A stretch of 46,014 nucleotides of DNA, from assembly GCA_003963305.1 (NCBI GenBank), contig RXJR01000002.1, positions 1-46,014 on the forward strand, given 5' to 3'. Each line of letters begins with the position of its first letter. Within the stretch, counting starts at the first letter, position 1. Origin of the DNA: Candidatus Melainabacteria bacterium (lineage in GTDB: Bacteria; Cyanobacteriota; Vampirovibrionia; Obscuribacterales; Obscuribacteraceae). Under the pieces are notes generated by a model. It was not told the DNA's origin. It worked only from the letters and a program-made list of their open reading frames with translations, and searched no databases. Shown here one piece after another: positions 28,345 through 46,014 of the stretch. The position numbers were made by a program, and so were the translations under genes.

Positions 28345-29022
28345 ATGGCAAAAATTCTCGTTGTTGAAGATGATCGATTAGTTGCTGAGTTACTCAAAGA
28401 CAGGCTACAACTCGAACATCACAAAGTCGAATTAGCATTCAACGGGCAAGATGCCCTTGATCTGGCAATTTCCTTCCATTACGACTTACTGATTCTAGAC
28501 CTGGGATTGCCGCAGCTGGACGGTATCGACGTATTGAAGCGCTACAGAAATAAAGGGGAAACCTCGCCGGTCTTGATTTTGACGGGCAAGAACCAGACGC
28601 ACCAGAAAGAACAGGGGCTCGATGCGGGCGCCGATGACTACATGACGAAGCCCTATGACATCCGAGAGCTATGCGCTCGGGTCCGGGCGCTGTTAAGAAG
28701 AAGCGCGAGCAGCACTTCGAATGTACTCAAGTGCGGCAACATAACAATGGACACCGAAAAAGCTGAAGTAAAAGTGAATGGAGTCGTTGTTAAGCTGGTC
28801 CAGACAGAGTACCTGCTGCTGGAATTTCTCATGCGCAACAAGGGAAGAATCTTCAGCGCAGACGAACTGTTGAGGAGCTGCTGGGATTCAGACACCGAGG
28901 CGACTGAGGGTGCAGTGCGCACCTATGTCACAAGGATCCGAAAGAAGATAGATACTGATGGCAGCAAGTCACTTTTGCAGAGTATTTATGGACTTGGCTA
29001 CAAGCTAGACGATTCCGATTAA
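28345..29022 (+). CDS. OmpR/PhoB-family response regulator
   Basis: The regulator has 225 residues. The receiver has the acidic pair in VVEDD (8-10), phospho-acceptor Asp52 in LILDLGLP, Thr80 in LILTG and Lys102 in MTKPYD. The winged-helix DNA-binding domain (about 130-225) ends with SIYGLGYKL. The MAKIL start at 28345 is clear. It is a paralogue of the regulator at 1517 with identical spacing of key residues. The downstream gene is convergent (the stops overlap by 4 nt at 29019-29022). A PAS sensor kinase lies 2.3 kb further on the same strand, which could be the cognate kinase though it is not in the same transcript. Confidence 0.92.
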   Translation: MAKILVVEDDRLVAELLKDRLQLEHHKVELAFNGQDALDLAISFHYDLLILDLGLPQLDGIDVLKRYRNKGETSPVLILTGKNQTHQKEQGLDAGADDYMTKPYDIRELCARVRALLRRSASSTSNVLKCGNITMDTEKAEVKVNGVVVKLVQTEYLLLEFLMRNKGRIFSADELLRSCWDSDTEATEGAVRTYVTRIRKKIDTDGSKSLLQSIYGLGYKLDDSD

Positions 29023-31181
29023 GGCTTAATCTTTTCACGTAAAGCTTCCGCCTTCTTAGCTGCAAGCTCTCTCACCTGCGTGCTCGATGACTCGGCAGCC
29101 AGTTTCTGCAAGATTGTGATGCCCCGCACATCATCTAATTCCACAAGTTTGTTGATTGCAGCAATCTGGAAGTCACTTTCCGGTCTGCGACTGGCGTGAC
29201 TGCGCTCAAGCGCCGTGATCACAGTACCGAGTGCGGTGTCTTTAGGATTGGCACCAAGGAAAGGATTTCCGGATTCCTTAGACATTGGCACTATCGCGTC
29301 CAGAAGTTTGATGCGCGCTTGCTCGGGTACTGGCAAATTGACATTGTGTCCATTTACATCTCCAACCAGACCGCGAACAATAGCACGCGTCGAAAAATCG
29401 TGACTGATACCATTTGTACTGTTGACACGAACAAGCGCCTCTGCAGCATCGATCTGCCACTGCAACTTGTTGTTGCTGAGCGGACTGTCTCCACGTTTAT
29501 CATTCATCCTTCCGAATTTGCGGCCCTCAGTGAGGTGCCAACCATTCATAATCTCGTTCAGAACGCCTTGCTTCTTCTCATAGTTTGGATCGTCCTTATT
29601 GCAGGCATTGAGACGCACTTGCTCCCACTGTTTGACTCGTTCATCTCTAACAGCATTTTCATCGTTGATGACGGCACTACTACCGAAGTACCACGTTACG
29701 TCATCGACTTTCTTTTTGTATCCGACATCTTTGATCAGTTTCTCGGCTTCCTGCGCTAGCAGCCAGGACGTCTTAGCCGGCATCATCTCAGGATGATCCT
29801 TCGAGTTATTGTCCATAGCTCTCGTCAGTCGCTCCCGCTCACCCTGCATGAAGCGCTCAAATGGTGCTTTGATATCTTCGAACTTGCGGTCTTTTTCTGC
29901 AGCTACTAAGCGTTTACTATCCGCGACTGCCTTTTGAACAAAGTCGTCATTAGGCTTACCAATAGGATTGACAGGCTTTCCAGGCTGACCTGGTTGACCA
30001 GGAGCCAGAACAGGAGGTGTAACACCGACCGGTTGAGGAACCTTCTGAACTTCTGCTTTTCCTGGCTGCAATGACGGCACCACAGGCTGAAGATTCGGCT
30101 GGGTCGGATTGATCTTCGGTACTTCTGGCTTAAACTGCTGTGATGGTACCGGCACCGGTGGTGGAGCAATCGCAGGCTGCTTCACTTCAGGTTGAGGCAA
30201 AGCTGGTGGCACCACAGGCTGTTTCACTTCAGGTTGGGGCAAAGCTGGTGGCACCACAGGCTGTTTCACTTCTGGCTGAACCTTACCGGGAGGTGCAACC
30301 GGCTGTGCGGGCTGAACTTCCCAGGGTCGCACATTTGGCGCTGCTGGTTGACCAGGAGGGGGTTGGATATCGCCAACTGGTGGTACCGCATACGGTGGCT
30401 TACCAGGTTGCGGCTGTTGCACTGGTCTTGGCACTTGCTGCGGCACGAACGGTTGTTGTTGCACTGGCGGCGGCACTTGCTGTGGCACGAACGGTTGTTG
30501 TTGCACTGGCGGCGGCACTTGCTGCGGCACGAACGGTTGCTGTTGCACTGGCGGCGGCACTTGCTGCGGCACGAACGGTTGCTGCTGTGCAGGGCGAATT
30601 CCTTGCTGCATTTTTTCGATAAGCGCTCGTTGATCAGCGCGGAGCTGCTCGATTTGCTTTTTCAAGTTATCGATCTCGTCTCGAGCGATGCGCAGTTCAC
30701 GTTCCAGCTGCCGGGAACGATCTGTGGCAGCCGGACGGTCGGTAGGGGCATCCGGTCGAATACCCGGCGTAGCTGGTCGGACCCCATCAAACTTATACAA
30801 ATCCTCAACAGTCAAACCTGGCAATGCCGGTTTCTCCAGGGCGCGCAAGCGAGGCAACGGAGGCAGCTCCTTTTCTTCACGAGGCGCTCGTGGAGGAACG
30901 TCTCGATCACGACCAGTGCGGGGATTTCCAGGCGCCTGGGTTTTCCGCTCATCGGCAAGTCCCGCCGAATCGGTTATCGTCATAGCCGGCATAGCTGGAA
31001 TAGTGCAACGATCAGCAGTCGGCACAACCTGACATGGTTGACATCCGCCCATCGTCGCATACGGCGTGCTGTAAACGAGCGGTTGAGGTGCACAGGGCGA
31101 CTGTACAAAGTGCGGCTGTGAATCACACGGCTGACAGGATGACTGATGCCTGGCGGCAATTCGATCACGTATGAAGCCCAT
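29019..31181 (-). CDS. Large Pro/Gln-rich protein with C-terminal helical repeat module
   Basis: The 720-residue protein has a Cys-rich N-terminus (CQPC twice) without a signal peptide. A DLYKFDG motif lies near 130, a coiled coil near 155-195 (LERELRIARDEIDNLKKQIE), then two Pro-rich repeat arrays: 13-residue QQPFVPQQVPPPV units and 14-residue QPEVKQPVVPPALP units. The last ~300 residues are alpha-helical with HEAT-like character (ARIKLLDAI, FQIAAINKLVEL). That C-terminal part matches the end of the protein at 34123 in order and spacing of motifs, as does DLYKF. AGGAGGG lies 7 nt before the ATG. The likely role is a scaffold or surface structural protein. I do not recognise a named family. 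Confidence 0.75.
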   Translation of the reverse strand: MGFIRDRIAARHQSSCQPCDSQPHFVQSPCAPQPLVYSTPYATMGGCQPCQVVPTADRCTIPAMPAMTITDSAGLADERKTQAPGNPRTGRDRDVPPRAPREEKELPPLPRLRALEKPALPGLTVEDLYKFDGVRPATPGIRPDAPTDRPAATDRSRQLERELRIARDEIDNLKKQIEQLRADQRALIEKMQQGIRPAQQQPFVPQQVPPPVQQQPFVPQQVPPPVQQQPFVPQQVPPPVQQQPFVPQQVPRPVQQPQPGKPPYAVPPVGDIQPPPGQPAAPNVRPWEVQPAQPVAPPGKVQPEVKQPVVPPALPQPEVKQPVVPPALPQPEVKQPAIAPPPVPVPSQQFKPEVPKINPTQPNLQPVVPSLQPGKAEVQKVPQPVGVTPPVLAPGQPGQPGKPVNPIGKPNDDFVQKAVADSKRLVAAEKDRKFEDIKAPFERFMQGERERLTRAMDNNSKDHPEMMPAKTSWLLAQEAEKLIKDVGYKKKVDDVTWYFGSSAVINDENAVRDERVKQWEQVRLNACNKDDPNYEKKQGVLNEIMNGWHLTEGRKFGRMNDKRGDSPLSNNKLQWQIDAAEALVRVNSTNGISHDFSTRAIVRGLVGDVNGHNVNLPVPEQARIKLLDAIVPMSKESGNPFLGANPKDTALGTVITALERSHASRRPESDFQIAAINKLVELDDVRGITILQKLAAESSSTQVRELAAKKAEALREKIKP
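30175..30280. repeat. In-frame 42-bp Pro-rich repeats
   Basis: Two nearly identical and one partial 42-bp units encode QPEVKQPVVPPALP within the large Pro-rich gene on the minus strand. The edges are approximate. Confidence 0.8.
30418..30583. repeat. In-frame 39-bp Pro/Gln-rich repeats
   Basis: Four 39-bp units encode QQPFVPQQVPPPV within the same gene. The copies differ at only a few third-codon positions, so the array is recent and may vary in length between strains. Confidence 0.85.
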
Positions 31182-31317
31182 CTGTCAGCCCTCCTGAGAA
31201 TCGCAACACTTCTGGTTGCCTTTTCCGCATCTTAGGTGGCAATTGTTTCAACAAATTGGCTATGTAAAATCGGGAACTGTGATACAACCTTGAACGCGAA
31301 GGGTAGGGGCGAAAAGG

Positions 31318-33165
31318 GTGACAGTCAGAGTTCCAAATTTGATGGGAAAAGGGTTGCTAATCATCGCAATTCCGGCCCTCTTTCAGCTGATTTTCGGCAT
31401 CAGCCTGGCCTATATCGGGTTGAAGGCACACGAGGAACAAGAACGAGAAACACAGGCAATTCAGGTGCTCTTGCAAGCCGGTCGTATTGAGTCAGCCTGC
31501 TACACGATTACTAAAGAATGTGTACGCTTATCCGTTGAAAAAAGTGTTCGAGTGATTCGCACTATCAACGCAGCCACACAGAGCCTTGATACCAGCCAGG
31601 CCGAACTGGTGAATCTGGTAAAAAATGACGTTGTGCAAAAAACAAATGTCGAGCGTTTACTGCCGATGACAAAGTTATTTGTGCAGAATGTAGAAAAAAT
31701 CATTGAAGCGATCAAGGAGAACGACCAGATAGCGCTCACCATGAGCGCCATGCAAATCCGCAATTACACCCTGAAAAGAGGTGCGGGCGAAGAACAATTA
31801 GCCATAATCAGACAGGTAGAAGAAAGTCGACTGGCAGAAAGCCCAGTGCAGGGCGAAAAAACGGCTTTCATCCTGCTCATGCTTTCTATCGGACTGCTTA
31901 TCAGTACAATCCTTGCCCTGCTTTCCGCTGCCTACTTTCTGCAAGACATTGTTTTCAGAATCTACAACATCTCAAAAAATGCCGAGTTGATCACAATCGG
32001 TGAAGAGATGAAGCCTGTCATGAAAGGCCGCGACGAAATTGCCAGATTAGATAGGGTGCTGCACAGTATGGCGAAAAGCCTGAAAGACGCAACGAGGCGC
32101 GAAACAGCACTTGTCTCAAATGCAGCTGACGTCATTTTGTGCATCGACAAATCTTTCATGATCACAACTATAAATAAAGCAGCGCAGACACAATGGGGAT
32201 ACGCCGAAGGTGACCTGCTGCAAAAGCGGGTCATGAGCCTCATACCATCAGAGTCTCAGGAGAGCGCCCGAAATTTTTTCGCCAGTGCAAAAAATACTCG
32301 CAACTCCGAAACATCAGATCTTCCTATTATTTGTAACGATGGCAGAATTAAAACTTTTAGCTGGAACGTGCTCTGGTCACCAGAAGAAGACCTGCTCTTC
32401 TGTGTTGCACACGACGTATCCGAGCTGAGGCGCGTGGAGAATGCAAAACGCGACTTCATAAACATGGTCAGTCACGACATTAGAACGCCGCTAAGCGGCA
32501 TGGCCATTTTTCTGGAGATGATTCCGATGGGCGTCTACGGTGCGATAAACGAATCCGGAACCTCGCGTGCGAACGCCCTTAGCAGTGCATTAAACAGAAT
32601 CACAGCCATGGTTAACGACCTCCTCGATATTGAAAAAATGCAGTCGGGACAATTCCAGATCTTCAAGAATGAGGTAGATTTGAACAACCTCGTCAAAGCC
32701 AGTCTGGAAATGGTGCAGGGATACGCCGAGCAGCAGCAGATCACGCTTGAGAGCGAATGCAAAGGCAAAATGCTGGCTTGCGACGAAGCCCGAATAATTC
32801 AGGTGTTACAGAACCTGATGAGCAATGCGATAAAATTTTCGGCTCCGGGCAAGATCGTGAAACTAAATGTAGTGCAGGATGAGCACGACACCAGATTCGA
32901 AATTATCGACCAGGGCAAGGGCATTGCCAAAGACGATATTCCAATTCTATTTGACCGATTTACTCAAGCGAAAAATCAGGACGGCAGCAAACGTCGCTCA
33001 GGATTTGGTCTGGGACTCGCAATCTGTAAAGACATAGTCGAAAGACACGGCGGAAAAATTGGCATCATCAGCGAAATCGATAAAGGCAGCACATTCTGGT
33101 TTACGCTGCCAAACGATGAAACAAAAAAATCTGAAGCCCAGACGTCTGTAGCAGCGAACACTTAA
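31318..33165 (+). CDS. Membrane PAS sensor histidine kinase
   Basis: The 615-residue kinase has transmembrane segments at about 12-32 and 180-207. The ~150-residue extracytoplasmic region between them is mostly helical (four-helix-bundle or CHASE3-like). A HAMP-like linker (about 208-260) and a PAS domain (about 263-370, NAADVILCIDKSFMITTIN...W) follow. HisKA has MVSHDIRTPLSG (His386), and the ATPase domain has NLMSNAIKFS, DQGKGI, FDRFTQA and GFGLGLAI. The start is a GTG with AGGGG about 8 nt before; an ATG at 31342 is an alternative but would clip the first helix. The nearest regulator is at 28345, separated by an opposite-strand gene. It converges on the SIMPL gene, gap 12 nt. Confidence 0.93.
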   Translation: MTVRVPNLMGKGLLIIAIPALFQLIFGISLAYIGLKAHEEQERETQAIQVLLQAGRIESACYTITKECVRLSVEKSVRVIRTINAATQSLDTSQAELVNLVKNDVVQKTNVERLLPMTKLFVQNVEKIIEAIKENDQIALTMSAMQIRNYTLKRGAGEEQLAIIRQVEESRLAESPVQGEKTAFILLMLSIGLLISTILALLSAAYFLQDIVFRIYNISKNAELITIGEEMKPVMKGRDEIARLDRVLHSMAKSLKDATRRETALVSNAADVILCIDKSFMITTINKAAQTQWGYAEGDLLQKRVMSLIPSESQESARNFFASAKNTRNSETSDLPIICNDGRIKTFSWNVLWSPEEDLLFCVAHDVSELRRVENAKRDFINMVSHDIRTPLSGMAIFLEMIPMGVYGAINESGTSRANALSSALNRITAMVNDLLDIEKMQSGQFQIFKNEVDLNNLVKASLEMVQGYAEQQQITLESECKGKMLACDEARIIQVLQNLMSNAIKFSAPGKIVKLNVVQDEHDTRFEIIDQGKGIAKDDIPILFDRFTQAKNQDGSKRRSGFGLGLAICKDIVERHGGKIGIISEIDKGSTFWFTLPNDETKKSEAQTSVAANT

Positions 33166-33177
33166 ACCAGCTACTTC

Positions 33178-33900
33178 CTATTCGATAGCATAAACCACAG
33201 TGATTGCGGCAGTGCTCTCCTGCTCACCTGCAGATATCGGTACAGATTGAGCCATTTCAGCCCGTGCTGCCATCATCATCATCGGTCGAGGTGGCTGAAT
33301 CGTGCCACTGGATTCGGTGATATAGAGCACCCGACCAACTTTTACACCGGCTGCTCCGGCATATAATTCGGCTTTTCGCTTCGCATCAGCCATGGCTTTC
33401 TGGCGAGCCTGGTCGAGCACGCTGTCAGGCTCCGCCAGCGAGAAACTGATTCCATTTACATTATTGGCACCGGCAGTAATGACGGCGTCCAAAATATCGC
33501 CAAGGGTTGGCAAATTGCGAATTTTCACATGCACTTCGTTGCTCACCTGATAGCCGACGATACTGGGGCGCTGCTGCCCGTTGATGTTGTCGTAACGATA
33601 TTGAGGATTAACGCTGAAGTTGCTGGTCAATATGTCTTTTTCTGCGATGCCTTTACTCTTCAGTGTGCTCATAAGACTGTTCATCTTATCGGTGTTGTTT
33701 TTCAGCGCAACTGCAGCAGTCTTGGCGTCACTGACCACTCCCATGGAGATCTGAGCCTGATCCGGTTTGGCAAAGGCATGCCCTTCTCCAGTTACAGAAA
33801 CTGACGGTGGCAAATCTTTCATTTCAACAGCTAAACCTGGCAGCGCCGCGCTAACTATTCCGCACAAACTCAACGACAGGGACAGAAAAAGTCTGGTCAT
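33178..33900 (-). CDS. SIMPL-domain (DUF541) secreted protein
   Basis: The 240-residue protein has a clear signal peptide (TRLFLSLSLSLCG..., cleavage near GLAVE). A SIMPL/DUF541 domain covers most of the mature protein. Hallmarks are the opening VSVTGEGHAFAKPDQAQI strand pair, the helix LKNNTDKMNSLMSTLKSKG, GYQVSNEVHVKIRNL, and the LDQARQKAMADAKRKAELYA helix. SIMPL proteins are periplasmic or outer-membrane-associated with a poorly defined role (BP26/OMP28 type). I start at the ATG at 33900, which has GGAG 6 nt before; a TTG 12 nt upstream is less likely. Confidence 0.9.
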   Translation of the reverse strand: MTRLFLSLSLSLCGIVSAALPGLAVEMKDLPPSVSVTGEGHAFAKPDQAQISMGVVSDAKTAAVALKNNTDKMNSLMSTLKSKGIAEKDILTSNFSVNPQYRYDNINGQQRPSIVGYQVSNEVHVKIRNLPTLGDILDAVITAGANNVNGISFSLAEPDSVLDQARQKAMADAKRKAELYAGAAGVKVGRVLYITESSGTIQPPRPMMMMAARAEMAQSVPISAGEQESTAAITVVYAIE

Positions 33901-34122
33901 GATTATCTCCAACTCTCAGTGCATGCAATTATACGCCAGCCGTTTCTGGAATACATGCAACACTAGAACCTGATATGCGCAACGCTTTTGAGCATAAAAG
34001 CCACACGGATCAGTTCGTCCGTCGAACAAATCGAGCAGCAACATTGTTGCAACATTCAAAACATAGACTTCAATTGTCGGTGTTCTTGGCAACACCTTTT
34101 GGACAAGCGAGGGCAAAAACGC

Positions 34123-36891
34123 ATGGGTCAACCACTTACTAGTTGCGAATTAAACGGCACCTGCAGACCGTACAAACCGGCTGAGAATTACAAACAACCG
34201 GAAGAACCAACAAGATGGAACAGCTGTGCAAGCGATGCCTACTGCCGTCCGTCAAGCGTTGGTGTGACTACATCAGTTGACGGACAGGATAAAAAAGGCT
34301 ACGACACGATGGTGGCTAAGATTCCATACTCTGATAAAAACTATGGACAAGCACTAAAAGATGCACTCGAACAGAAAAAGCCAGTTGTCGCAATATTTGG
34401 CAGTTGGGACAAGAACAATTCTCGCGGTTTGCTGCAGGACGCTTTACCAGGTGGCGGACAGAGCAAAGATGCGATTTATTTGTACATCGACCCGGCAAAA
34501 TGCGACGACCCAGCTTTGAAAAAGTTTGCCGAACAACAGTTGGCCGGCGGACACAACGCGACCGCGACGATCGTATTCGATGTTAAACAAGACAAAGATG
34601 GAAACGCTCAGCCAAACGAATACAAATACCGCTGGATCGGCGACAGCAAATCTATGGTGCCATCTTTCCAGCAAGCCGTAGCCGATGCAACGGAACGCCA
34701 GAAAAACAATCCTTACACGAAAAAAGACGACACACCAGAACCACCTAAAGATGTCAAAGAACCGGTAAAGAAGCCGAAAAGCGATGACCCGGTCCTGGAA
34801 GTGCCACCACTGGATGACCTTTACAAGTTTGGCGGAAAGAAACAAGAGGAAGCACCAGCTCCAAAAGCTGTAGAGCCCAAAGCCGAACCTAAAGCCGAAC
34901 AAAAGCCGGAGCCCAAAGCCGAGCAAAAGCCGGAGCCCAAAGCCGAGCAAAAGCCGGAACCCAAAGCCGAGCAAAAGCCGGAACCCAAAGCCGAGCAAAA
35001 GCCGGAGCCGAAAGTCGAACAAAAGGGCGAATCAGCAAAACCAGCAGAACCACAAAGATACACCGTTGAAGAATACGAAAAGCTGAAAGCAAGCAAACAG
35101 ATCTATGACGGCACACAAGGACACCCTGGCTACGATGAAACACACAAGAAGCTCTCAGAAAGCGCCATCGCGTTGAATCAAATCCTCAGTAAACCAGGCG
35201 GTCCAGCTAACAAAACAGAGCTAGACACTGCTGTAAAACTGGCAAATGAGGCCGAACTGCAGCGAAAAGCGGAAGCGGAAATTCTCACTCAAGCGCTAAA
35301 AAGCCTTGACGGAGTTCCTGGAACCGAGAAGCTGGCCCAGGAGTACGGTAACAAATTGAAAGCCAATGAGACCTGTCTTGCGGGTTTGCAGACGCAATTG
35401 CAAGCTGAACTGCTAAAGGCAGAAACGAAAAAACAAACAGAAGAATTGAAAGCAGTTCAACAAAAGGCAGAACAAGACAAGAAGGCAGCAGAAGAAGCTT
35501 TGAAAGCGCAACAAAATGCTGCAACGCAATCCAAGACTCAATATGACGCCACTGTTAGAAAAGACAATGAAGATCGTGACAAATGGAGTGCAACCGTCAA
35601 ACAGGAGGAATTAAGACACGATGGTGCCAGGACAAATCTAGGTAACCAGTATCCCAAACCGGAAGATGCCATCAAGGCAGGCACTCCGTATGAACTGCTT
35701 GATCCTTACAAAGCACGCGCGAAGATGAACGAACAAAAATCCATGTGGAAAGGAGAGAAAACAGAGCACGACGACATGGCTAACGTTGCCGAAAGACAAC
35801 GCATGGGACAGTGGAGACAACTTGCAGACGAAGTTAAATCGCCCGGTCGAAGCGAAGACAAAAGCAACAAGGAAAAATTACTGTATGACGCGGTCACCAA
35901 AGCCGGCAAGCCATTCTCATCATCCTTCGATCTCCAGCTCACCGGTGGCGGTATCATTCAGAACCACGGCAGCGCATGGACATCGCGCGCAGCAGAAGCA
36001 ATGGTTGCAACTTGCGACCCGAGCCTAGATCGCAAAATCGCTGTAGATACAGTGCCTCTGGCGCTGACCAACAACAATGTTCCCGAAAGCAGCAAACTGA
36101 AATTACTGGACGGTCTCAAAAAACTTGGAGAAAATGGAGCTGATGGTAAGCCGGCAATTACACGCGAGCAAGAAATTGCTGTTCTAACCAGAGCTCTTGA
36201 AGAAGACCGAAAGAAGAACTTTGAAGCTGTCGGTTATGCATCCAGCATGAATTACAAGAATCAGCAAGGCTTCAAAGATAGCGATAAGCGCTCGCAGGTT
36301 GAATTCCAAGCCGCAGTTATAAAACGATTGGGCGAACTGAAAGCAGTCGAAGCAACCGACCTTTTAGCAGCCAGCGCATCACACGCCAATCCAACCATTG
36401 CCAGAGCTGCCAGAGAAACTATCGCCAAGATTCATCCAACCGTGGCAGAATTGCGCCGCGATGTGGTCAGCGACCCGTTGGTAGCTCAAGCAGACCGGCA
36501 CAAAGCGTTTGACGAACAGTTTGCGCATCCTCGCGCCGACAAACGTGCCGCCGCAGTAATAAGAGCGTTTGGAAGTCAACAAATCAGTGATGCCAAAGAT
36601 CCCGGTTATGCGAAACTGGCAGGAGTTGCAGAAAACCCGACTGAAGACGCCACGGTCAGATTGGCAGCAGCCTCCGTCTTGAGCAAATCAACAGTGGCGG
36701 ATGCACGCTCCAGGGCTCAGAAAGTGGCAGCAGACATGTACTGCACTGCCAACCAAATTCCTCAGTACTCTGAGGCAGCAGCAACAATTCTGAAAGACAC
36801 AATTCCAGATAAGCAAGCTGTTAGTGTAGGTCTCGCTGATGGACGCACTGTTATCATCACACGCCAGGGAGATAATCTCATATTCAAATAA
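34123..36891 (+). CDS. Large Lys/Glu/Pro-rich protein with thioredoxin-like N-terminus and helical repeat C-terminus
   Basis: The 922-residue protein has four domains in order. An N-terminal Cys-containing segment (to about 60) comes first, with no signal peptide. A thioredoxin-like domain (about 70-200) has KPVVAIFGSWDKNNSRGLL, where WDKNN occupies the place of WCxxC, so both active Cys are absent. Next come a DLYKFGG motif (near 230) and an EPKAEQKP repeat array. A long coiled coil (about 340-500) follows, then a C-terminal alpha-helical repeat module (about 590-870) related to that of the protein at 29019. GAGGG lies 9 nt before the chosen ATG; an upstream TTG at 33988 would add 45 unconvincing residues. 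The likely role is a structural scaffold; the family is unknown. Confidence 0.75.
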   Translation: MGQPLTSCELNGTCRPYKPAENYKQPEEPTRWNSCASDAYCRPSSVGVTTSVDGQDKKGYDTMVAKIPYSDKNYGQALKDALEQKKPVVAIFGSWDKNNSRGLLQDALPGGGQSKDAIYLYIDPAKCDDPALKKFAEQQLAGGHNATATIVFDVKQDKDGNAQPNEYKYRWIGDSKSMVPSFQQAVADATERQKNNPYTKKDDTPEPPKDVKEPVKKPKSDDPVLEVPPLDDLYKFGGKKQEEAPAPKAVEPKAEPKAEQKPEPKAEQKPEPKAEQKPEPKAEQKPEPKAEQKPEPKVEQKGESAKPAEPQRYTVEEYEKLKASKQIYDGTQGHPGYDETHKKLSESAIALNQILSKPGGPANKTELDTAVKLANEAELQRKAEAEILTQALKSLDGVPGTEKLAQEYGNKLKANETCLAGLQTQLQAELLKAETKKQTEELKAVQQKAEQDKKAAEEALKAQQNAATQSKTQYDATVRKDNEDRDKWSATVKQEELRHDGARTNLGNQYPKPEDAIKAGTPYELLDPYKARAKMNEQKSMWKGEKTEHDDMANVAERQRMGQWRQLADEVKSPGRSEDKSNKEKLLYDAVTKAGKPFSSSFDLQLTGGGIIQNHGSAWTSRAAEAMVATCDPSLDRKIAVDTVPLALTNNNVPESSKLKLLDGLKKLGENGADGKPAITREQEIAVLTRALEEDRKKNFEAVGYASSMNYKNQQGFKDSDKRSQVEFQAAVIKRLGELKAVEATDLLAASASHANPTIARAARETIAKIHPTVAELRRDVVSDPLVAQADRHKAFDEQFAHPRADKRAAAVIRAFGSQQISDAKDPGYAKLAGVAENPTEDATVRLAAASVLSKSTVADARSRAQKVAADMYCTANQIPQYSEAAATILKDTIPDKQAVSVGLADGRTVIITRQGDNLIFK
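34873..35025. repeat. In-frame 24-bp Lys/Glu/Pro repeats
   Basis: About six 24-bp units encode EPKAEQKP in the 922-residue protein gene. The copies are nearly identical in DNA, with GAG/GAA and CCC/CCG changes only. Confidence 0.85.
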
Positions 36892-36954: not shown

Positions 36955-38742
36955 TCATGGTGCGTCAGCAACAAAACCCAGTTTCGATGCCGTCTCCTGA
37001 TCTTGTTTTGCTAATTCCGCTTTTCCCAGTGCTTCATAAACCTTTGACCGATAGTAGAAGTTTTCTCCGCCACAGAGCGTTTTGCCCATCTCGATCGATC
37101 TGCTCAAGTCAGCCAGTGCATCGTCACACCTTCCTAGTTTAAAGGCTGCTTCTCCGCGATTACAAATTCCACCGGCGTTGTTCGGGTCAAGCTTTACCGC
37201 TCTCTCCGCTGCATCAAAAGCCAGTTGATACTTGCCCATCCGCATGTAGACAGCGCTTTCGTTAATGTGACTGAGCGGCTCGTTGGGGTTGAGTCTAATC
37301 GCTTCCTCGAAATCAGCCAGAGCGCGAGCGTCATCTTTCTGCTTCATGTAGATAAAGCCTCGCGAAACATACGAGCGAGCGCTTTTCGGATAAATTGATA
37401 TGACATGATTGGCGTCTGAAAGCGCACGATCGAATTGTTTCAACTGGCAGTAAACGGACTCGCGAGTATCGTAAGAAGCTGGCTCCGATGGTGACAATTC
37501 GATTGCTTTGTCGAGATTGGCCAGGGCTTGATCAAACGCCTTGAGTTTTAAATAAACCGCAGCTCTTTTTTGATATCCGGAAGCATCAGTTTTTGTCGAA
37601 TCGACTTCATCTAGTCGCGCTTTTAGAGTCGGCGTGATCTGCCCCGCACTGGCTGCATAAAAGACCAGTGCTTCCTTAACCTCAGTCGTGTTCTCAAGTT
37701 TCAGGCTCTCTGCTGCCACTTTATCAGCTTCACTGTTTCGTCCAGCAGCGAGCAGACAGGCATAGATACGACCGGCATCCTCAGGGAATGGATTGACATC
37801 GCCCGTTTCTTTCGCCATCTCTTGAGCGAAATCAAATTTATGCTTCAACACAACTAGCGGGTCTTTGATGAAAACAGCCGCGTCTGCCCATCGCCCCGAC
37901 CTGATTAAAAGCGGCTCTAGCTTGAAGGCCACATCCTTCAATTTACTGCTCTGTGCGGGATCATGTTTGACTTTGTCGAACCATTCAAATGAGGCTTGAT
38001 CATCTCCCAGAATCTGATTCAGAGTCACCCAGTCCGCCAGATTACGCGTTTGAGCCTCATCTCTCAACTTAACGAACGAAGTTCGAGCAGAAGGATATTT
38101 CGCAATCAAATCTGAAATCTCGGAAGCCAGAAAAGTCAGGCGCACTCCAGCAAGTTCGGGGGTCAATTTCGCCATGTTCTGCCAGACCCAGATGAAATTA
38201 TCTCGGGCATCTTCGTAGCGGCCCGAAGCGAGTTGAGCCCGGGCTAGTTCGTAACGAGCTTCCATTTCATCGCTGCCACCTTTCCCTTTAGCCACATTCA
38301 ACTCTTTCTGCATTCGGTCCACAGCAGTAACGCCACTTTTCACCGCCTTCAACCAGTTGAGCAGCTCGTCGCTGTCCTGAAAGCCCAGGGTTCTGTCAGC
38401 CTCATTAGCGCTGTCTTTAAACACCACCAGTGATGGCATAGCGACAATGCTCATCTCCCTGGCGAGATTCTGCTCTTTATCCACATCAATTTGAACGGCT
38501 ATTGCATTATTGCGAATCCAGTTAACGACCTTCGGATCTTGCCAGGTCGTTTTATCCATCTCACCGCATGGGGGGCACCATGATGCAGTAAAGTCGACGA
38601 GAAGGAGCTTCCCCTCCTGCTTTGCCTGAGCTTTCGCTTCTGCCAGAGTCAGATCCGAGAACAGCGCCGGGTGAGCCAGGGCGCCGGTGTTGCAGCCAAT
38701 CGTCAGCGCCAGCGCAATAAAATAACGAATACGGATCTTCAT
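36955..38742 (-). CDS. Secreted thioredoxin-domain protein with TPR repeats
   Basis: The 595-residue protein begins with a signal peptide (KIRIRYFIALALTIG, cleavage near ALAHP). A thioredoxin domain (about 28-140) has active site WCPPC (55-59) and cis-Pro loop IVAMPSLVVFKD. A helical middle follows, then at least five TPRs (about 400-580: AAVYLKLKAFDQALANLDKA, YVSRGFIYMKQKDDARALAD and similar). The thioredoxin part resembles the C-terminal domain of DsbD. It probably acts in the periplasm as a thiol oxidoreductase with a TPR docking arm. I start at the ATG at 38742 with GAG upstream; a longer reading to 38787 would mask the signal peptide. Confidence 0.88.
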   Translation of the reverse strand: MKIRIRYFIALALTIGCNTGALAHPALFSDLTLAEAKAQAKQEGKLLLVDFTASWCPPCGEMDKTTWQDPKVVNWIRNNAIAVQIDVDKEQNLAREMSIVAMPSLVVFKDSANEADRTLGFQDSDELLNWLKAVKSGVTAVDRMQKELNVAKGKGGSDEMEARYELARAQLASGRYEDARDNFIWVWQNMAKLTPELAGVRLTFLASEISDLIAKYPSARTSFVKLRDEAQTRNLADWVTLNQILGDDQASFEWFDKVKHDPAQSSKLKDVAFKLEPLLIRSGRWADAAVFIKDPLVVLKHKFDFAQEMAKETGDVNPFPEDAGRIYACLLAAGRNSEADKVAAESLKLENTTEVKEALVFYAASAGQITPTLKARLDEVDSTKTDASGYQKRAAVYLKLKAFDQALANLDKAIELSPSEPASYDTRESVYCQLKQFDRALSDANHVISIYPKSARSYVSRGFIYMKQKDDARALADFEEAIRLNPNEPLSHINESAVYMRMGKYQLAFDAAERAVKLDPNNAGGICNRGEAAFKLGRCDDALADLSRSIEMGKTLCGGENFYYRSKVYEALGKAELAKQDQETASKLGFVADAP

Positions 38743-38817
38743 AGATTTCTCAAAAGCGAATAATAGACATTCTGGCACGTTGCACATTGATTTCGGGCGA
38801 GCTTTCGTGCGAATTCG

Positions 38818-39256: not shown

Positions 39257-42028
39257 ATGTCGAAAACCTCCACGTCAGTTGCCCAAAAGAGGGTCTTCCT
39301 CTTCGCTGCCGCTTTCAACCACTTCGCAGGCGGCGCTACCTCGCTGACCTCCGCTGCCCGCGCGAGCATGCGCGATGCGCTGGGCGGCAAGGGTGCCGGT
39401 CTGGCTGAGATGACCGCAAGCGGCATCAGCGTGCCGCCTGGTCTGACGATTCTCACTTCCGTCTGCCGTGAGTACTACGACAACGGCAAGACGCTTCCCG
39501 ATGGGCTCTTCGACGAGGTGCTGACTGACCTCGCGCAGGTCGAAGCCGCCGTCGGTCGTCGTCTCGGCGATGTCGCCAATCCGCTTCTGCTTTCGGTGCG
39601 CTCCGGCGCCAAGTTCTCCATGCCCGGCATGATGGACACCATCCTCAACCTCGGCCTCAACGACAAGACCGTGGAAGGGCTGGCGGCCAAGCTGGGCGAA
39701 CGTTTCGCGCTCGACAGCTACCGGCGTTTCATCCAGATGTACGGCAACGTCGTGCTCGACCTGGGCAAGGACGAATTCGAAGAACTGCTCCATGCCGCCA
39801 AGGAACGCGCCGGCGTCGAGACCGATGCCGAGCTCAACGCTGACCAGCTGCGCGCTCTCATCGTCGACTACAAGCTGCTCGTCTCCAATCGCGTCGGCAT
39901 CGACTTCCCGCAAGACACCCAGGAGCAGCTGCGCGGGGCTGTCGAAGCGGTGTTCAAGTCGTGGAACAACGACCGCGCCATCTACTACCGCAACCTCAAC
40001 GGCATCGACCACGCCATCGGCACCGCCGTCACCGTGCAGGCGATGGTGTTCGGCAACCTGAACGAGCAGTCGGGCACGGGTGTGTGCTTCACGCGCAACC
40101 CGAGCACCGGCGAGCCTGTGCTCTACGGCGAGTACCTGCTCAACGCGCAGGGTGAAGACGTGGTCGCCGGCACTCGCACGCCCAAGCCGATCGCTCGCAT
40201 GGCCGACGAGATGCCCGCGTCCTACGAGGAACTGCTGCGCACCACGGCGGCGCTGGAGGCGGCGTACCTCGACGTGCAGGACGTCGAGTTCACGATCGAG
40301 AGCGGCAAGCTCTACATCCTCCAGACCCGCACCGGCAAGCGCACCGCGGAAGCGGCTGTGCGCATCGCCGTCGACCTGGCCAACGAAGGCGTCATCTCTC
40401 GCGAGACGGCGCTCACGCGTGTCGAGCCGGCACAGCTCAACCAGCTCCTGTTGCCCTCCTTCTCGGGCGAGGCGCTGGCTGCCGCCAAGATGACCGGCCG
40501 GCACATCGCCACGGGTCTGGCAGCGTCTCCCGGTGCTGCGGTCGGGCGCATCATCTTCGACCCGGACGAAGCGGCGGCACTGGGCGCGGCAGGCGAGAAG
40601 GTGATTCTCGTCCGCATCGAGACCTGCCCCGACGACATCCACGGCATCGTTCCGGCCCAGGGCGTCGTCACCGCCCGCGGTGGCATGACCAGCCACGCGG
40701 CAGTCGTCGCTCGCGGCATGGGCAAACCCTGTGTCTCGGGCTGCGAAGCGCTGAAGATCGACCTTGCCGGTCAGACCTTCACGGTCGGCGGTCGCGTCTT
40801 CCGCAAGGACGAGGTGATCTCTATCAACGGGTCGAACGGCGAGATCTACGCAGGCGCCATTCCGTCGACGAACATCAAGCTCTCCAGCCACTTCCACACG
40901 CTGCTTGCCTGGGCTGACGACGTGCGCGAGCTGGGCATCCGCACCAACGCCGACACGCCGGAAGACGCCGAGCTGGCACGCAACTTCGGCGCCGAAGGGG
41001 TTGGGCTGTGCCGCACCGAGCACATGTTCATGAGCCAGGACCGCCTGCCCGTCGTGCAGCGCATGATCCTGGCCAACAACGAGGGCGAACGCCGCGCCGC
41101 CCTGGCCGAGCTGCTTCCCTTGCAGCGCGAAGACTTCACCGGCATCTTCCGGGCCATGGCCGGCCTGCCTGTGACGATTCGCCTGCTCGACCCGCCGCTG
41201 CACGAGTTCATTCCGAAAGCCGCCAAGCTGGAGGAAGAAATCGAGACGCTGCGGGCGCTGCCGGGCACCGACGAAGTGCTCGCCGCCATTGCGCAGAAGC
41301 AGGCCCTGCTGCGCAAAATCGACGAACTGCACGAGTCCAACCCGATGATGGGTCTGCGCGGCTGCCGCCTCGGGCTGCTCTATCCCGAGATCAACGAGAT
41401 GCAGGTGCAGGCGATCTTCGAAGCTGCCATCGCGGTGACCGGCGACGGCATCGAGGTGCTGCCTGAGATCATGATTCCGCTCGTCGGCGTCGTGGAAGAA
41501 CTGCAGTTCGCTCGCGAGGTGCTCGAGCGCGTCGCTCGCCAGACCATGGAGACGGCGGGTGTGAGCATCGACTACAAGTTCGGCACCATGATCGAGGTGC
41601 CGCGGGCGGCGCTTACGGCTGACGAAATCGCGCATCACGCCGAGTTCTTCAGCTTCGGCACCAACGACCTGACCCAGATGACGTACGGCTACAGCCGCGA
41701 CGACGCCGAGGGCCGCTTCCTGCAGCACTACCTCGACGGCGTCAACGTCAACGGCAGCAAGCGCAAGGTGCTGGCGCGCAACCCGTTCGAAGTGCTCGAC
41801 CGGGGTGGCGTCGGCAAGCTCATGAAGTTAGCCGTCGAGGGCGGGCGCTCCACGCGTCCCGGGCTCAAGGTAGGCATCTGTGGTGAGCACGGCGGCGAGC
41901 CCAGCTCGATCGCCTTCGCGCGTCAGGTGGGGCTCAACTATGTGAGCTGCTCGCCCTACCGTGTGCCCGTCGCTCGTCTGGCTGCCGCCCAGGCGAGCAT
42001 TGCCTCCACTCAAGAGCGCGACAAGTAA
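39257..42028 (+). CDS. ppdK: Pyruvate, phosphate dikinase
   Basis: This complete 923-residue PPDK interconverts pyruvate, ATP and phosphate with PEP, AMP and pyrophosphate. The N-terminal ATP-grasp half has LGGKGAGLAEM (ATP-site Lys), VRSGAKFSMPGMMDT and SGTGVCFTRNPSTGE. The swivelling domain carries GGMTSHAAVVARGMG with phospho-acceptor His480 and the regulatory-type Thr two residues before it. The C-terminal PEP/pyruvate barrel has CRTEHMF, GTNDLTQMTYG and GICGEHGGEPSS with catalytic Cys875. About 40 extra N-terminal residues precede the usual start, but AAGGA supports this ATG. GC content and codon use are clearly higher than in the genes before 39 kb. A degenerate paralogue follows directly. 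Confidence 0.97.
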   Translation: MSKTSTSVAQKRVFLFAAAFNHFAGGATSLTSAARASMRDALGGKGAGLAEMTASGISVPPGLTILTSVCREYYDNGKTLPDGLFDEVLTDLAQVEAAVGRRLGDVANPLLLSVRSGAKFSMPGMMDTILNLGLNDKTVEGLAAKLGERFALDSYRRFIQMYGNVVLDLGKDEFEELLHAAKERAGVETDAELNADQLRALIVDYKLLVSNRVGIDFPQDTQEQLRGAVEAVFKSWNNDRAIYYRNLNGIDHAIGTAVTVQAMVFGNLNEQSGTGVCFTRNPSTGEPVLYGEYLLNAQGEDVVAGTRTPKPIARMADEMPASYEELLRTTAALEAAYLDVQDVEFTIESGKLYILQTRTGKRTAEAAVRIAVDLANEGVISRETALTRVEPAQLNQLLLPSFSGEALAAAKMTGRHIATGLAASPGAAVGRIIFDPDEAAALGAAGEKVILVRIETCPDDIHGIVPAQGVVTARGGMTSHAAVVARGMGKPCVSGCEALKIDLAGQTFTVGGRVFRKDEVISINGSNGEIYAGAIPSTNIKLSSHFHTLLAWADDVRELGIRTNADTPEDAELARNFGAEGVGLCRTEHMFMSQDRLPVVQRMILANNEGERRAALAELLPLQREDFTGIFRAMAGLPVTIRLLDPPLHEFIPKAAKLEEEIETLRALPGTDEVLAAIAQKQALLRKIDELHESNPMMGLRGCRLGLLYPEINEMQVQAIFEAAIAVTGDGIEVLPEIMIPLVGVVEELQFAREVLERVARQTMETAGVSIDYKFGTMIEVPRAALTADEIAHHAEFFSFGTNDLTQMTYGYSRDDAEGRFLQHYLDGVNVNGSKRKVLARNPFEVLDRGGVGKLMKLAVEGGRSTRPGLKVGICGEHGGEPSSIAFARQVGLNYVSCSPYRVPVARLAAAQASIASTQERDK

Positions 42029-42109
42029 CGCGCCACTTCGACCTCATCAAGCACATTGACTGCAGAAAAACGCAACCTGCATGATTTTGCTTGAAGAGCA
42101 CAGCCATAA

Positions 42110-42161
42110 GCGGCACCGGTCGGTTCGATCTTGCTCCGGCAAGTAGAGCCGCCGGTGCCGC
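42110..42161 (+). promoter_or_regulatory. Nested hairpin between ppdK and its paralogue
   Basis: A perfect 10-bp outer stem (42110-42119 with 42152-42161) encloses a 5-bp inner hairpin (42130-42143) closed by TCCG, a UNCG-type tetraloop flanked by C and G. There is no U tract. It lies 37 nt before the paralogue ATG at 42199, upstream of its GAGG. It may be a leader RNA or mRNA-stability element. Confidence 0.5.
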
Positions 42162-42198
42162 CATGGTTGAACTACAACGAACACTAAGAGGACTTTGG

Positions 42199-43920
42199 AT
42201 GACCTCCACTACTCACAGGAAAGTATTCTCCCTGGCCGCAGCCTGTGCTCTCTTCGGAGAGACGGTGCAATCAGGCTGCGCCTGCAGCGCATCAAGCACC
42301 ACAGGCGATGCCAGCCTGGGCTTTGCCCTGGGCGACAAGGCGGCGCGCCTGGCAAGCATGATTGCCAGTGGCATCAACGTTCCGCCCGGACTGGCCATTG
42401 CCACGTCGGTTTGCCGCGACTTCCACAACAACAAGCAGGCTCTGCCGGCAGGTCTCTTCAACGAGGTGCTGTCGGGGCTTCGCGGCGTCGGGCAGAGCCA
42501 CGGTCGCAGCTTCGGTGACGACTTCATGCCGCTTCTTCTGGCGGTGCGACCGAGCCCGGTCGTCTCGATGCCCGGCATGCTCGACAACGTGCTCAACGTC
42601 GGGCTCACCGACTACAGCACCGAGTTGCTCGCCCAGCAGCTCGGCGAGCGCTGTGCGGTCGACAGCTACAGGCGCTTCATCGAGAACTACGGCACAGTCG
42701 TGCTGGGCATCGAAGCGGCGCACTTCGAGCGGCTGCTCACCGACGCCATCAACCAGGCCGGAGTGCCCAGCCACATCGACCTGAGCGTCGAGCAGCTGCG
42801 CGCCCTGGTCGACGAGTACAAGACTTTCGTCTGGGATCAGTCGGGAACACCGTTCCCGCAGAACCCGTACGAGCAGCTGCAGCGCTCCATCGAGGCGGTG
42901 CTTGCCTCGTGGAACAGCGACCGCGCCGTGGTCTATCGCAACATCAACGGCATCTGCCATGACACCGGCACAGGCGTGATCGTGCAGGCGATGGTTTTCG
43001 GCAACTGCAACGACCAGTCGGGCACCGGGCAGTGCTTCAGCCGCGATCCGCGCACAGGTGAGCCCGGCAATCTGGCCGGCGAATACCTGTTCAACTCTCA
43101 GGGCGGCGACGTTTCGGCAAGCATTCGCACACCCAAGCTGATCTTCCGGCTGCAAGGCGAAATGCCGACCACCTACGAGCAGCTCAAGCGCATCGCCGAG
43201 CGTCTCGAGAACGACCACCGCGACATGCAGGAGGTCCACTTCACCATCGAGAATGGTGAGCTGTACGTGCTCATGTCGCGCCCCGGCTGGCGCACGGCAG
43301 AAGCTGCAGTGCGCATCGCCGTCGACTTCGCCAACGAAGGCGCCATCAGCCGTGCCGAAGCCGTCAGCCGCATCGCAACCGGGCAGTGGCAACAGCTGCT
43401 GCGCCCGGTTTTCAGCGGCGAGAACCTGGCTGCGGCGAAGATGATGGGCCGGCACGTCGCCACCGGCCTGGCTGCCGCTCCCGGTGCCGCGGTGGGCAAG
43501 ATCGTCTTTGATCCGAAGGAAGCGGCCGAGCGCACTGCGGCGGGCGAGAAGGTCATTCTCGTCGGCTCAGACATGTGCCCGGCAGACTTCGTCGGCATCG
43601 CGCCCGCCGAAGGCATCATCACCGCGCGTGGTGGCATGACCTGCTTCGGCGCCGGTGCTGCCCGAGGCATGGGCAAACCGTGCATTGCCGGCTGCGACTC
43701 GCTCAAGGTCGACCGGCACAACCAGCTCGTCATCGTCGGACGGCACGCGTTCTTCAAGAACGATGTCATCTCCATCGATGGCTCCAACGGCGAAATCTAC
43801 GCCGGCACCGTCAACCCGACTGCGGTCAGGAAGTCGACTCATCTCGACACCCTGATCGCCTGGGCTCGGGAACTGGGCATCGATACCGGCAAGGAAGGCG
43901 AAACGGGCAGCACCATCTAG
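42199..43920 (+). CDS. PPDK-like paralogue lacking the catalytic His and the PEP/pyruvate domain
   Basis: The 573-residue protein aligns with the N-terminal ~575 residues of the upstream PPDK. It keeps the ATP-grasp features (LGDKAARLASM with Lys, VSMPGMLDNVLNVGLTD, SGTGQCFSRDPRTGEP) and the swivelling-domain fold. The phospho-His motif GGMTSHAAVVARG has become GGMTCFGAGAARG, so Phe483 stands where His should be. The acidic QGED of the ATP/metal region is QGGD. It stops at the linker where the PEP/pyruvate barrel would begin, and no remnant of that domain follows. The open frame and codon use are intact, and GAGG lies 7 nt before the ATG. The first ~30 residues are hydrophobic and Cys-rich, weakly signal-like. 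It is more likely a pseudoenzyme or regulator than a dikinase. Confidence 0.9.
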   Translation: MTSTTHRKVFSLAAACALFGETVQSGCACSASSTTGDASLGFALGDKAARLASMIASGINVPPGLAIATSVCRDFHNNKQALPAGLFNEVLSGLRGVGQSHGRSFGDDFMPLLLAVRPSPVVSMPGMLDNVLNVGLTDYSTELLAQQLGERCAVDSYRRFIENYGTVVLGIEAAHFERLLTDAINQAGVPSHIDLSVEQLRALVDEYKTFVWDQSGTPFPQNPYEQLQRSIEAVLASWNSDRAVVYRNINGICHDTGTGVIVQAMVFGNCNDQSGTGQCFSRDPRTGEPGNLAGEYLFNSQGGDVSASIRTPKLIFRLQGEMPTTYEQLKRIAERLENDHRDMQEVHFTIENGELYVLMSRPGWRTAEAAVRIAVDFANEGAISRAEAVSRIATGQWQQLLRPVFSGENLAAAKMMGRHVATGLAAAPGAAVGKIVFDPKEAAERTAAGEKVILVGSDMCPADFVGIAPAEGIITARGGMTCFGAGAARGMGKPCIAGCDSLKVDRHNQLVIVGRHAFFKNDVISIDGSNGEIYAGTVNPTAVRKSTHLDTLIAWARELGIDTGKEGETGSTI

Positions 43921-43966
43921 CATCGCCCTCGCTCGCCAAAACTTACCGGCAGTAATGCCATAAACC

Positions 43967-44020
43967 CCCTCGCGGACGGTTTCATCTGCAGATCTTTTCT
44001 GCACTGACCGCGAGGGCTTT
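43967..44020 (+). terminator. Nested hairpin with short T run after the PPDK paralogue
   Basis: CCCTCGCGG (43967-43975) pairs with CCGCGAGGG (44008-44016), then CTTTTG follows. Inside is a second hairpin, TGCAGA/TCTGCA (43987-44003). It sits 46 nt after the paralogue stop and just before the AGGAG of the next gene, so it could be a terminator, an attenuator or a leader structure. Confidence 0.55.
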
Positions 44021-44036
44021 TGAGACAGGAGAACAT

Positions 44037-44510
44037 ATGACTCGCGAAGGAACAACACTGGTCATCGTCGACATGCAGCCCGGATTGCCCGCCTCTCACG
44101 AGGACTGGCTGAAGGGAGCCGTCTATCAAGAAATCATGACGGCACGCGGAGAAGACTGGGGCATCGTGATCCTGGAGTACATGCATCACAGCCCGCCCCG
44201 ATCGCTCGGCGACACGTACCAGTACCTCGTTTCCGCGGCCGCCGGCAACTGCGACGTGTTCGCCATGCGCGTGAAAGCCACGCTCGATGGCAGCGAACGG
44301 GTGGCAGATGCCGCTGCGCACAAGAACATGCCGACGGAACGTTTCCGAGTCTGCGGCGTCAACGTGCACGGCTGCGTCCAGGCGACCGTGCTCGGACTTG
44401 CTCAGCGCTATCCCGACAGCCTCATCGAAGTGGTCGGGCACGCCTGCAACGACATCAACGGCATCAACTGGAACCGCTTCAAGCTGCCGCCCAACGCGCA
44501 AGTCGTTTAA
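44037..44510 (+). CDS. Isochorismatase-like cysteine hydrolase
   Basis: The 157-residue protein fits the isochorismatase/nicotinamidase superfamily. VIVDMQPG supplies the catalytic Asp (near 12), a Lys lies in RVKATLDGSE (near 80), and Cys in GVNVHGCVQAT (near 117) would be the nucleophile. The cis-peptide-like turn before the Cys helix is present. It is shorter than most members (180-220 residues), and the region between Asp and Lys is reduced. The substrate cannot be told. AGGAG lies just before the ATG. It follows the PPDK paralogue in the same GC-rich block, separated by a nested hairpin. Confidence 0.85.
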   Translation: MTREGTTLVIVDMQPGLPASHEDWLKGAVYQEIMTARGEDWGIVILEYMHHSPPRSLGDTYQYLVSAAAGNCDVFAMRVKATLDGSERVADAAAHKNMPTERFRVCGVNVHGCVQATVLGLAQRYPDSLIEVVGHACNDINGINWNRFKLPPNAQVV

Positions 44511-44518
44511 CCACTAAA

Positions 44519-44578
44519 GCGCACGCAGAGGCTTGAGCCGCTCCGTCTTCGGGCAAGTCGCTCTGTCCTTACGTGCGC
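44519..44578 (+). promoter_or_regulatory. Long multi-segment inverted repeat after the isochorismatase-like gene
   Basis: GCGCACG (44519-44525) pairs with CGTGCGC (44572-44578). Inside, CAGAG (44526-44530) pairs with CTCTG (44561-44565) and GCTTG with CAAGT (one G-T pair). No U tract follows. It starts 8 nt after the stop codon. It may be a terminator-like or processing structure. Confidence 0.45.
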
Positions 44579-44667
44579 CGATCGTCTAATCACTTCGCCG
44601 GAGCCGTTGCTCAAACGAGCAATCGCTCTGGTGCTCTTGCAACCATGTCTTCCAGGGAAAACACAAC

Positions 44668-45081
44668 ATGCCTCGTCCACTGATTGGCGTTTCGATCATC
44701 TTCGTCGTCACCGCCATCCTCATCTTCATTTGCGGATTCTTCTCGCTCGGCACGTTCCCGCTCCTCCCCGCCGGCAGCCTTCTGCTCACGGCGCTTCTGG
44801 TCACGGGTCTGGCCTGGCTCATCTACTGCGTGGTCGGAGTAGCGGTCTGCCTGCCGCTGCGTGTCGTCCGTCCCGGCTATGCACTGCCCACGGTGCTCGG
44901 CACTGTCTCCGGTGCAGCCGCCATCGCGATCACGGGCTGGATTTTTCCCAGCATCGTCATCAGTCAGGGCTGGCTGGCGGCGGTACCGTTCGCTTTCGTC
45001 AACACTATGGCTGTATGGGGCGCCGCCTACGCCACTGGCTTCATCAATCCGAAGCTGACCTTCTGGCCGGAGCGCCGTTAA
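44668..45081 (+). CDS. Small multi-span membrane protein
   Basis: The 137-residue protein has about four membrane helices (roughly 5-27, 31-60, 70-88, 93-120) and short loops, with no catalytic motif. The last residues (NPKLTFWPERR) are basic and probably cytoplasmic. I do not recognise a family. AGGGA lies about 9 nt before the ATG. It belongs to the GC-rich block and precedes another membrane-anchored protein by 76 nt, so the two may form one unit. Confidence 0.65.
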   Translation: MPRPLIGVSIIFVVTAILIFICGFFSLGTFPLLPAGSLLLTALLVTGLAWLIYCVVGVAVCLPLRVVRPGYALPTVLGTVSGAAAIAITGWIFPSIVISQGWLAAVPFAFVNTMAVWGAAYATGFINPKLTFWPERR

Positions 45082-45116
45082 AGAGACGGATTCCCGAGCA
45101 ATATCCCTTCCACCAT

Positions 45117-45138
45117 GCTGGCAGCACACGCTGTCGGC
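45117..45138 (+). promoter_or_regulatory. Hairpin upstream of the last gene
   Basis: A 9-bp stem with two G-T pairs (45117-45125 with 45130-45138) closes on an ACAC loop. It sits 19 nt before the ATG at 45158 and may affect translation of that gene. Confidence 0.35.
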
Positions 45139-45157
45139 AAAGCCAGAGAGATATGTC

Positions 45158-45799: not shown

Positions 45800-45807
45800 C
45801 AGATAGT

Positions 45808-45844
45808 GGATAGAAGCCAGTCACATAAAGACTGGCTTCTGTCC
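45808..45844 (+). terminator. Strong hairpin terminator at the end of the GC-rich block
   Basis: A 15-bp stem with one G-T pair (45808-45822 with 45830-45844) has a 7-nt loop, 9 nt after the stop codon. A T-rich stretch lies 10-15 nt further on instead of immediately after, so it may also act as a 3'-end stabiliser. The sequence after it is AT-rich and holds no supported gene up to 46014. Confidence 0.75.
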
Positions 45845-46014
45845 ATCTTCGTATTATTTTTTGGCCATCATGCCACCACATGCAATACCACAACAAAATT
45901 GCAGCAGAGTCGTTCAAATGAGAAATTAAAAACCGGCAGGGGTCTCATCATATTGCAGCACCTTGACTATTTCTTTGTTTTCGTTTTATTATAGAGTATA
46001 GTGTTATACCCCTT

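Follow-up and report, generated by a model that had tools for sequence, protein, structure and literature searches.

Short targeting peptides are carried by unrelated cargo proteins, as in the case of the encapsulin cargo-loading peptides and the beta-clamp-binding motifs. To our knowledge, few short linear motifs of bacteria label many unrelated proteins, and every known one has led to a machine (the replication clamp, compartments, sortases). This report concerns a motif of the form DLYKF and two proteins that contain it, encoded in a stretch of 46,014 nucleotides (the window) from a Candidatus Melainabacteria bacterium (contig RXJR01000002.1, assembly GCA_003963305.1); the window covers the initial 46 kb of the contig and the genome comprises 7.5 Mb. 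The proteins have 720 residues (P0001; 29019..31181, minus strand) and 922 residues (P0002; 34123..36891, plus strand, counted from the ATG at 34123). In the reading preferred here, to which a probability of roughly 0.6 is assigned, they are a diverged pair of thioredoxin (Trx)-solenoid proteins, and the linker motif that recurs in them and in other proteins acts as a docking or sorting label for one common partner.

Both proteins had been proposed in an earlier inspection of the letters and open reading frames only (the sequence-only reading), and both frames are present. The motif to which that reading drew attention is found in each of them, as DLYKFDG in the 720-residue protein (residues 127-133; 30783..30803, minus strand) and as DLYKFGG in the 922-residue protein (residues 232-238; 34816..34836, plus strand). 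A strict DNA pattern for DL[YF][KQ][YF][DG]G occurs at 8 sites in the whole genome versus 0 for the reversed pattern, and these sites lie in six proteins: P0001, P0002, a LysM protein (L065), a LysM-CHAP-like protein (L066), a GH75 chitosanase-like protein (L067) and a Trx-Trx paralogue (L042). The slightly wider pattern DL[YF][KQE][YF]xG is found 17 times in three genomes of the genus, where its reversed form is found twice, and 15 times versus 11 in the family's 47 other genomes; with 14 distinct carrier genes counted, the Poisson probability amounts to 3e-12 at the rate outside the genus and 3e-8 against the reversed controls. A laxer scan of the same genome and the two other genomes of the genus returned 50 matches versus 38 reversed controls in all, so that most of the extra matches are due to chance. 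It added a family of about 290 residues with D[ML][YF]RW[SA]GD near the N-terminus, present in all three genomes, as well as a CHAP protein (DVFSWSGG), LysM carriers and a protein with tandem DLYKYSGD; a CAP protein with the motif was found in genome G001. The motif recurs in the disordered linkers of at least nine protein architectures, including LysM, LysM-CHAP, CHAP, GH75, CAP and Trx proteins.

Within these linkers the motif is conserved above its flanks, and it turns up in non-homologous disordered regions more often than chance would allow, as expected of a functional short linear motif. Four Trx-Trx proteins keep DL[FY][QKR][YF]GGD between differing flanks, and the islands of the Trx family read KPPRDLFQYGGDGKKS, EQKRDLFKYGGDGKTS, TSGPDLFKYGGDRERT and AYQRDLYRFGGDVKKS; no conserved motif island is evident in the linkers of the Trx-Trx proteins of genus g23. 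The LysM protein contains 5, 5 and 7 copies, a number that grows by local duplication. By hydropathy only, the 19 carriers examined for a signal peptide or transmembrane stretch show no hydrophobic 19-mer above a Kyte-Doolittle value of 1.33, and their first 60 residues do not exceed 0.77. Searches of the open literature for the motif strings returned unrelated matches only.

Some further observations on the carriers were made. The LysM-CHAP and GH75 carriers adjoin paralogues (44 and 42% identity) of the response regulator of the window, and a second regulator-kinase pair (L067, 8990-11001), distantly related to that of the window, lies close to the GH75 carrier. TadE/G-like proteins are encoded near LysM carriers (L065, 7944-9725, with Pfam Tad and VWA; L109, 376-2196), and proteins whose N-termini look similar to theirs are encoded near the HEAT protein L047 (10402-12171) and the CAP carrier L111 (2148-4529). 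The pattern [VI]I[VI]NNV-x3-NA[YF]F-[DNG]Q is common to LysM carriers (L065, L109, L142) and the family of about 290 residues (L143, L145, L148). Signal-less LysM and CHAP/amidase-like proteins of 250-650 residues are numerous across the family (22 of 55 genomes, several copies per genome). A phage origin of the LysM carrier was considered and dropped, as no viral match was obtained.

The second element common to the pair is a C-terminal module, which comprises residues 417-720 of the 720-residue protein (29022..29933, minus strand; delimited by profile, model and fold comparison) and, by profile, residues 481-771 of the 922-residue protein (35563..36435, plus strand), where it is followed by an extension (residues 772-922; 36436..36888, plus strand). 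In a pairwise BLASTP comparison of the two proteins the C-terminal similarity stays below significance, and profiles were therefore needed. A hidden Markov model (HMM) was built from six sequences, namely the module of the 720-residue protein and its homologues from other genomes, with the 922-residue protein excluded. It matches residues 481-771 of the latter with E-values of 4.4e-15 (whole protein, 50 bits) and 5.1e-14 (domain), the best of 200 shuffles reaching 4.7 bits. The shared module of the sequence-only reading is thus upheld by a profile that had not seen one of its two members, and the module is truly common to both proteins; the refuting outcome named in that reading, a profile comparison without significant similarity, did not occur. 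Across the whole genome the HMM has two matches only, P0001 (2e-138) and P0002 (4e-13), whose genes are 5 kb apart. It also reaches proteins of about 1900 residues in genera g7, g12, g15, g16 and g24, one of which (L047, g12) scores Pfam HEAT_2 at 3.7e-12; the extension and module of the 922-residue protein together match the HEAT region of such proteins from another genus. The relatives found in database genomes belong to metagenome assemblies labeled 'Candidatus Melainabacteria' or Cyanobacteriota. No phage match was obtained for the 720-residue protein, and a phage origin was rejected.

The module is undescribed, lying outside the sequence families of Pfam, NCBIfam and the PDB, in none of which it has a significant match; the best Foldseek E-value is 0.02, and Pfam HEAT matches neither protein of the pair, only the remote relative L047. 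Its AlphaFold2 model is all-helical (predicted template-modeling score 0.78, mean predicted local distance difference test score, pLDDT, 76.6), with helical hairpins in the confident part. Among solved structures, those closest to the model are HEAT/ARM solenoids and designed helical repeats, with Z-scores of 8-11, below the 13 advised for helical repeats; the HEAT/ARM-type structures resembling it include the PP2A scaffold, the CpcE/CpcF lyase, symplekin and alphaRep. The module is likely a HEAT-like alpha-solenoid of stacked helical hairpins, the structural match being suggestive rather than proof.

Motif and module are separable. Other genera have the module in proteins that lack the motif, and at least seven further architectures of the same genus carry the motif but no module, so the two are independent and do not define one family. 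The sequence-only reading had proposed an undescribed family with a conserved docking module and variable spacers; the new module and the variable spacers stand, the single family does not, and the docking idea fits the motif better than the module. The module is probably not the obligatory partner or reader of the motif either, since in genome G001 (87% complete) several proteins carry the motif and none the module.

The remaining parts of the two proteins are alike in some respects and different in others. Both N-termini start with MG followed by a cysteine-rich tail, which in the 720-residue protein covers residues 1-53 (31023..31181, minus strand, from the sequence), whereas a Trx-like domain is found only in the 922-residue protein (residues 58-206; 34294..34740, plus strand). 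The proposal of unrelated N-termini is therefore not entirely accurate, and homologues in which the Trx-like domain and a module of the 720-residue type are fused exist elsewhere. A start of the form MG[FIL]xxR followed by a cysteine-rich tail (CxPC, CxxxxC), without a signal peptide, was noted in P0001, P0002, L041, L046, L056, L111 and L199. The Trx fold of the 922-residue protein is shown by an iterated HMM that joins Trx domains bearing CxxC, by Thioredoxin_7 scores in 11 of 22 homologues of the N-terminal domain, and by an AlphaFold2 model (pLDDT 83.6) with a Foldseek probability of 1.00 to thioredoxins. The domain is degenerate: GSWDKNNSR stands at the place of the Trx WCGPC, and no redox-active CxxC is present at the active-site place in this protein or in the other aligned N-terminal domains. 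Because of this replacement, a binding role rather than that of a redox enzyme is likely for the domain. The spacers are genuine tandem repeats that differ between the proteins, as the sequence-only reading had it: 42-nt repeats encoding QQPFVPQQVPPPVQ units (30413..30584, minus strand) and QPEVKQPVVPPALP units (30173..30279, minus strand) in the 720-residue protein versus a 24-nt repeat encoding EPKAEQKP units (34879..35025, plus strand) in the 922-residue protein. Overall, the former is composed of the tail, DLYKFDG, a coiled coil, a PQ-rich repeat spacer and the solenoid module, and the latter of the tail, the Trx-like domain, DLYKFGG, the EPKAEQKP repeat, a helical stretch, the module and the extra HEAT-like tail.

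In other genera, a Trx-like domain of the P0002 type and a module of the P0001 type occur in one chain (L043/L044/L045 (g13), L046, L198, L199 (g11)), and each of these fused genes adjoins the orthologous kinase and regulator, as do P0001 and its orthologue in genome G002. Protein anatomy and gene neighborhood favor a reading of P0001 and P0002 as diverged copies of one Trx-solenoid protein of a two-component locus. The ancestral chain would have consisted of the MG and cysteine-rich tail, the Trx-like domain without CxxC, a disordered repeat-prone linker and the solenoid. Other genera would have kept it as a single gene between sensor kinase and response regulator, and this genus as two genes; the 720-residue copy would have lost the Trx-like domain, the 922-residue copy having retained it and gained the C-terminal extension. 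The shared N-terminal part is also joined to a CxxC thioredoxin in paralogues of this and a sister genome (L042, L050, L051, L052) and to thioredoxin plus CAP in L056.

The locus itself is arranged around a two-component system. An OmpR-type response regulator (28354..29022, plus strand; domain search and locus comparison) is convergent with the 720-residue gene, one TTAA holding both overlapping stops, and a membrane histidine kinase with PAS, HisKA and HATPase domains (31318..33165, plus strand) is divergent from it. A SIMPL (DUF541) protein is encoded between the kinase and the 922-residue gene (33178..33912, minus strand), and a thioredoxin-TPR protein downstream of the latter (36955..38787, minus strand); these three genes were assigned by domain search. 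The gene order is repeated in G002, of the same genus, including the thioredoxin-TPR gene and a SIMPL-like gene at the matching position. In all eight loci of the kinase-regulator-module type that were compared (G000, G002, G037, G042, G046, G012, G029, G036; three genera), orthologues of the kinase and of the regulator (40-69% and 62-92% identity, respectively) adjoin the module gene. Scans of the region for promoters and terminators gave chance-level results only. Further along the window, GC content increases from about 0.49 to 0.58-0.67 over 39257-46014, the rise starting at 38-40 kb; this block opens with two PEP-utilising/PPDK-like genes (923 and 609 residues) and is possibly acquired DNA.

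A possible second form of the motif was seen in sister genera. At aligned places of the CAP protein, RDLFQYGGD and RDFYQYGDG in genus g1 correspond to DNLFPDRRS and RDLFPTHRS in g13, the g13 protein having been found via its Trx domain and not via the motif. The GH75 linker has DLYQFDGG and DLYQFDGD in g1, and DLFP[SA]RRNE and NQFP[TA]RR[NS]E in g13; the linker of the g11 Trx-module protein contains three DLYPDSRNE. Shuffled sequences would be expected to contain no more than 0.03 such sites per protein, and none of the 29 proteins tested carries both spellings. DL[YF]PxxR as a genus-dependent second spelling is a lead, not a result.

In the preferred reading, the motif would be a docking or sorting label read by a common partner. 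This partner would bring the carriers together and may be an export device, a compartment or an assembly that faces the envelope. The solenoid and the degenerate Trx domain would provide further protein-binding surfaces, the adjacent two-component system would control the protein set, and the label may be spelled differently from genus to genus, as co-evolution of label and reader would predict. A more specific version would see in DLYxYxGD (one genus) and DLFPxxR (sister genera) a sorting code of Obscuribacterales-like Melainabacteria that marks proteins without a signal peptide (cell-wall hydrolases, CAP, Trx and solenoid proteins) for a shared non-Sec export device or compartment, label and reader changing together; this version is speculative and rather doubtful.

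Several points weigh against the preferred reading. The motif statistics within the genus cover three genomes only, and the nine architectures are not fully independent, as an ancestral N-terminal part is common to the CAP, Trx-Trx and Trx-module proteins. The second spelling is not enriched at genome scale in other genera (17 sites versus 13 controls), so that any dialect is borne by a few orthologous linkers only; its strict form is absent from the Trx-module proteins of g13 and G012, the g13 GH75 proteins came to light through a search for this very spelling, which introduces ascertainment, and in the GH75 alignment the second copies are not in exactly the same columns. In G002, the syntenic counterpart of the 922-residue gene (L041, 10285-11817) has the Trx-like domain but lacks both motif and module, so even inside the genus the pair is not constant. 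The data would suit export, a compartment or a condensate alike.

The last of these would correspond to a motif that acts as a self-association 'sticker', with aromatic DLYxYSGD units and Q/G/N/R-rich spacers driving condensation without a dedicated receptor. The 5-7 copies of the LysM carriers, spaced by QNRGRQNQGSG-like low complexity, and the retention of the aromatics while the second variable position drifts (K/Q/R/N/A) would suit this explanation; most carriers, however, have one or two copies, not enough for condensation driven by valence, the residues D, L and G are retained as strictly as the aromatics, and relatives have DLFPxxR instead, with P, R and a single aromatic, all of which makes it unlikely. 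An improbable alternative is a functionless linker cassette that duplication and recombination have carried into the repeat-prone disordered regions of one genus: repeat-rich linkers slip easily, tandem copies such as DVYQYSGDQNRGRQNQGSG are near-identical and the spread is confined to one genus, but the motif is an island conserved between species where flanks and repeats differ, the flanks of the carriers are unlike each other, contrary to what copied cassettes would leave, and both copies in the CAP protein change together between genera. The pair might also serve as adaptors of one two-component system, the solenoid docking to kinase or regulator and DLYKF being uninvolved, in keeping with the kinase and regulator orthologues that flank the module gene at every compared locus. 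Given that the motif in proteins encoded elsewhere in the genome would be left unexplained, and that the 922-residue gene lies outside the kinase-regulator pair and has a counterpart in G002 without the module, this explanation is very unlikely.

A genus-wide motif on signal-less proteins of cell-wall type makes its carriers a defined protein set in these uncultured relatives of cyanobacteria, and its putative reader could be sought as a factor whose binding groove varies with the spelling. The analysis also provides a first anatomy of an undescribed Trx-solenoid protein that stands beside one two-component system in three genera.

Compared with known systems, the module resembles HEAT/ARM solenoids in its predicted stacked hairpins, in its Z-scores and in having relatives that score HEAT_2, and differs from them in its lack of a database sequence match, such Z-scores being common among helical repeats. 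The N-terminal domain of the 922-residue protein shares fold and profile with the thioredoxin superfamily (Thioredoxin_7) and departs from it by the missing CxxC and by its union with a cysteine-rich tail and a solenoid. Several carriers contain the same domains as envelope hydrolases exported by Sec or Tat (LysM, CHAP, CAP, GH75), whereas by the hydropathy test the motif carriers have neither a signal peptide nor a transmembrane stretch. As for short targeting peptides, DLYKF has a distinct sequence, is often internal and in tandem rather than terminal, and sits on carriers of cell-wall type; by analogy, it may be likened to them as one short motif, placed in disordered regions of non-homologous proteins and spelled in a lineage-specific manner.

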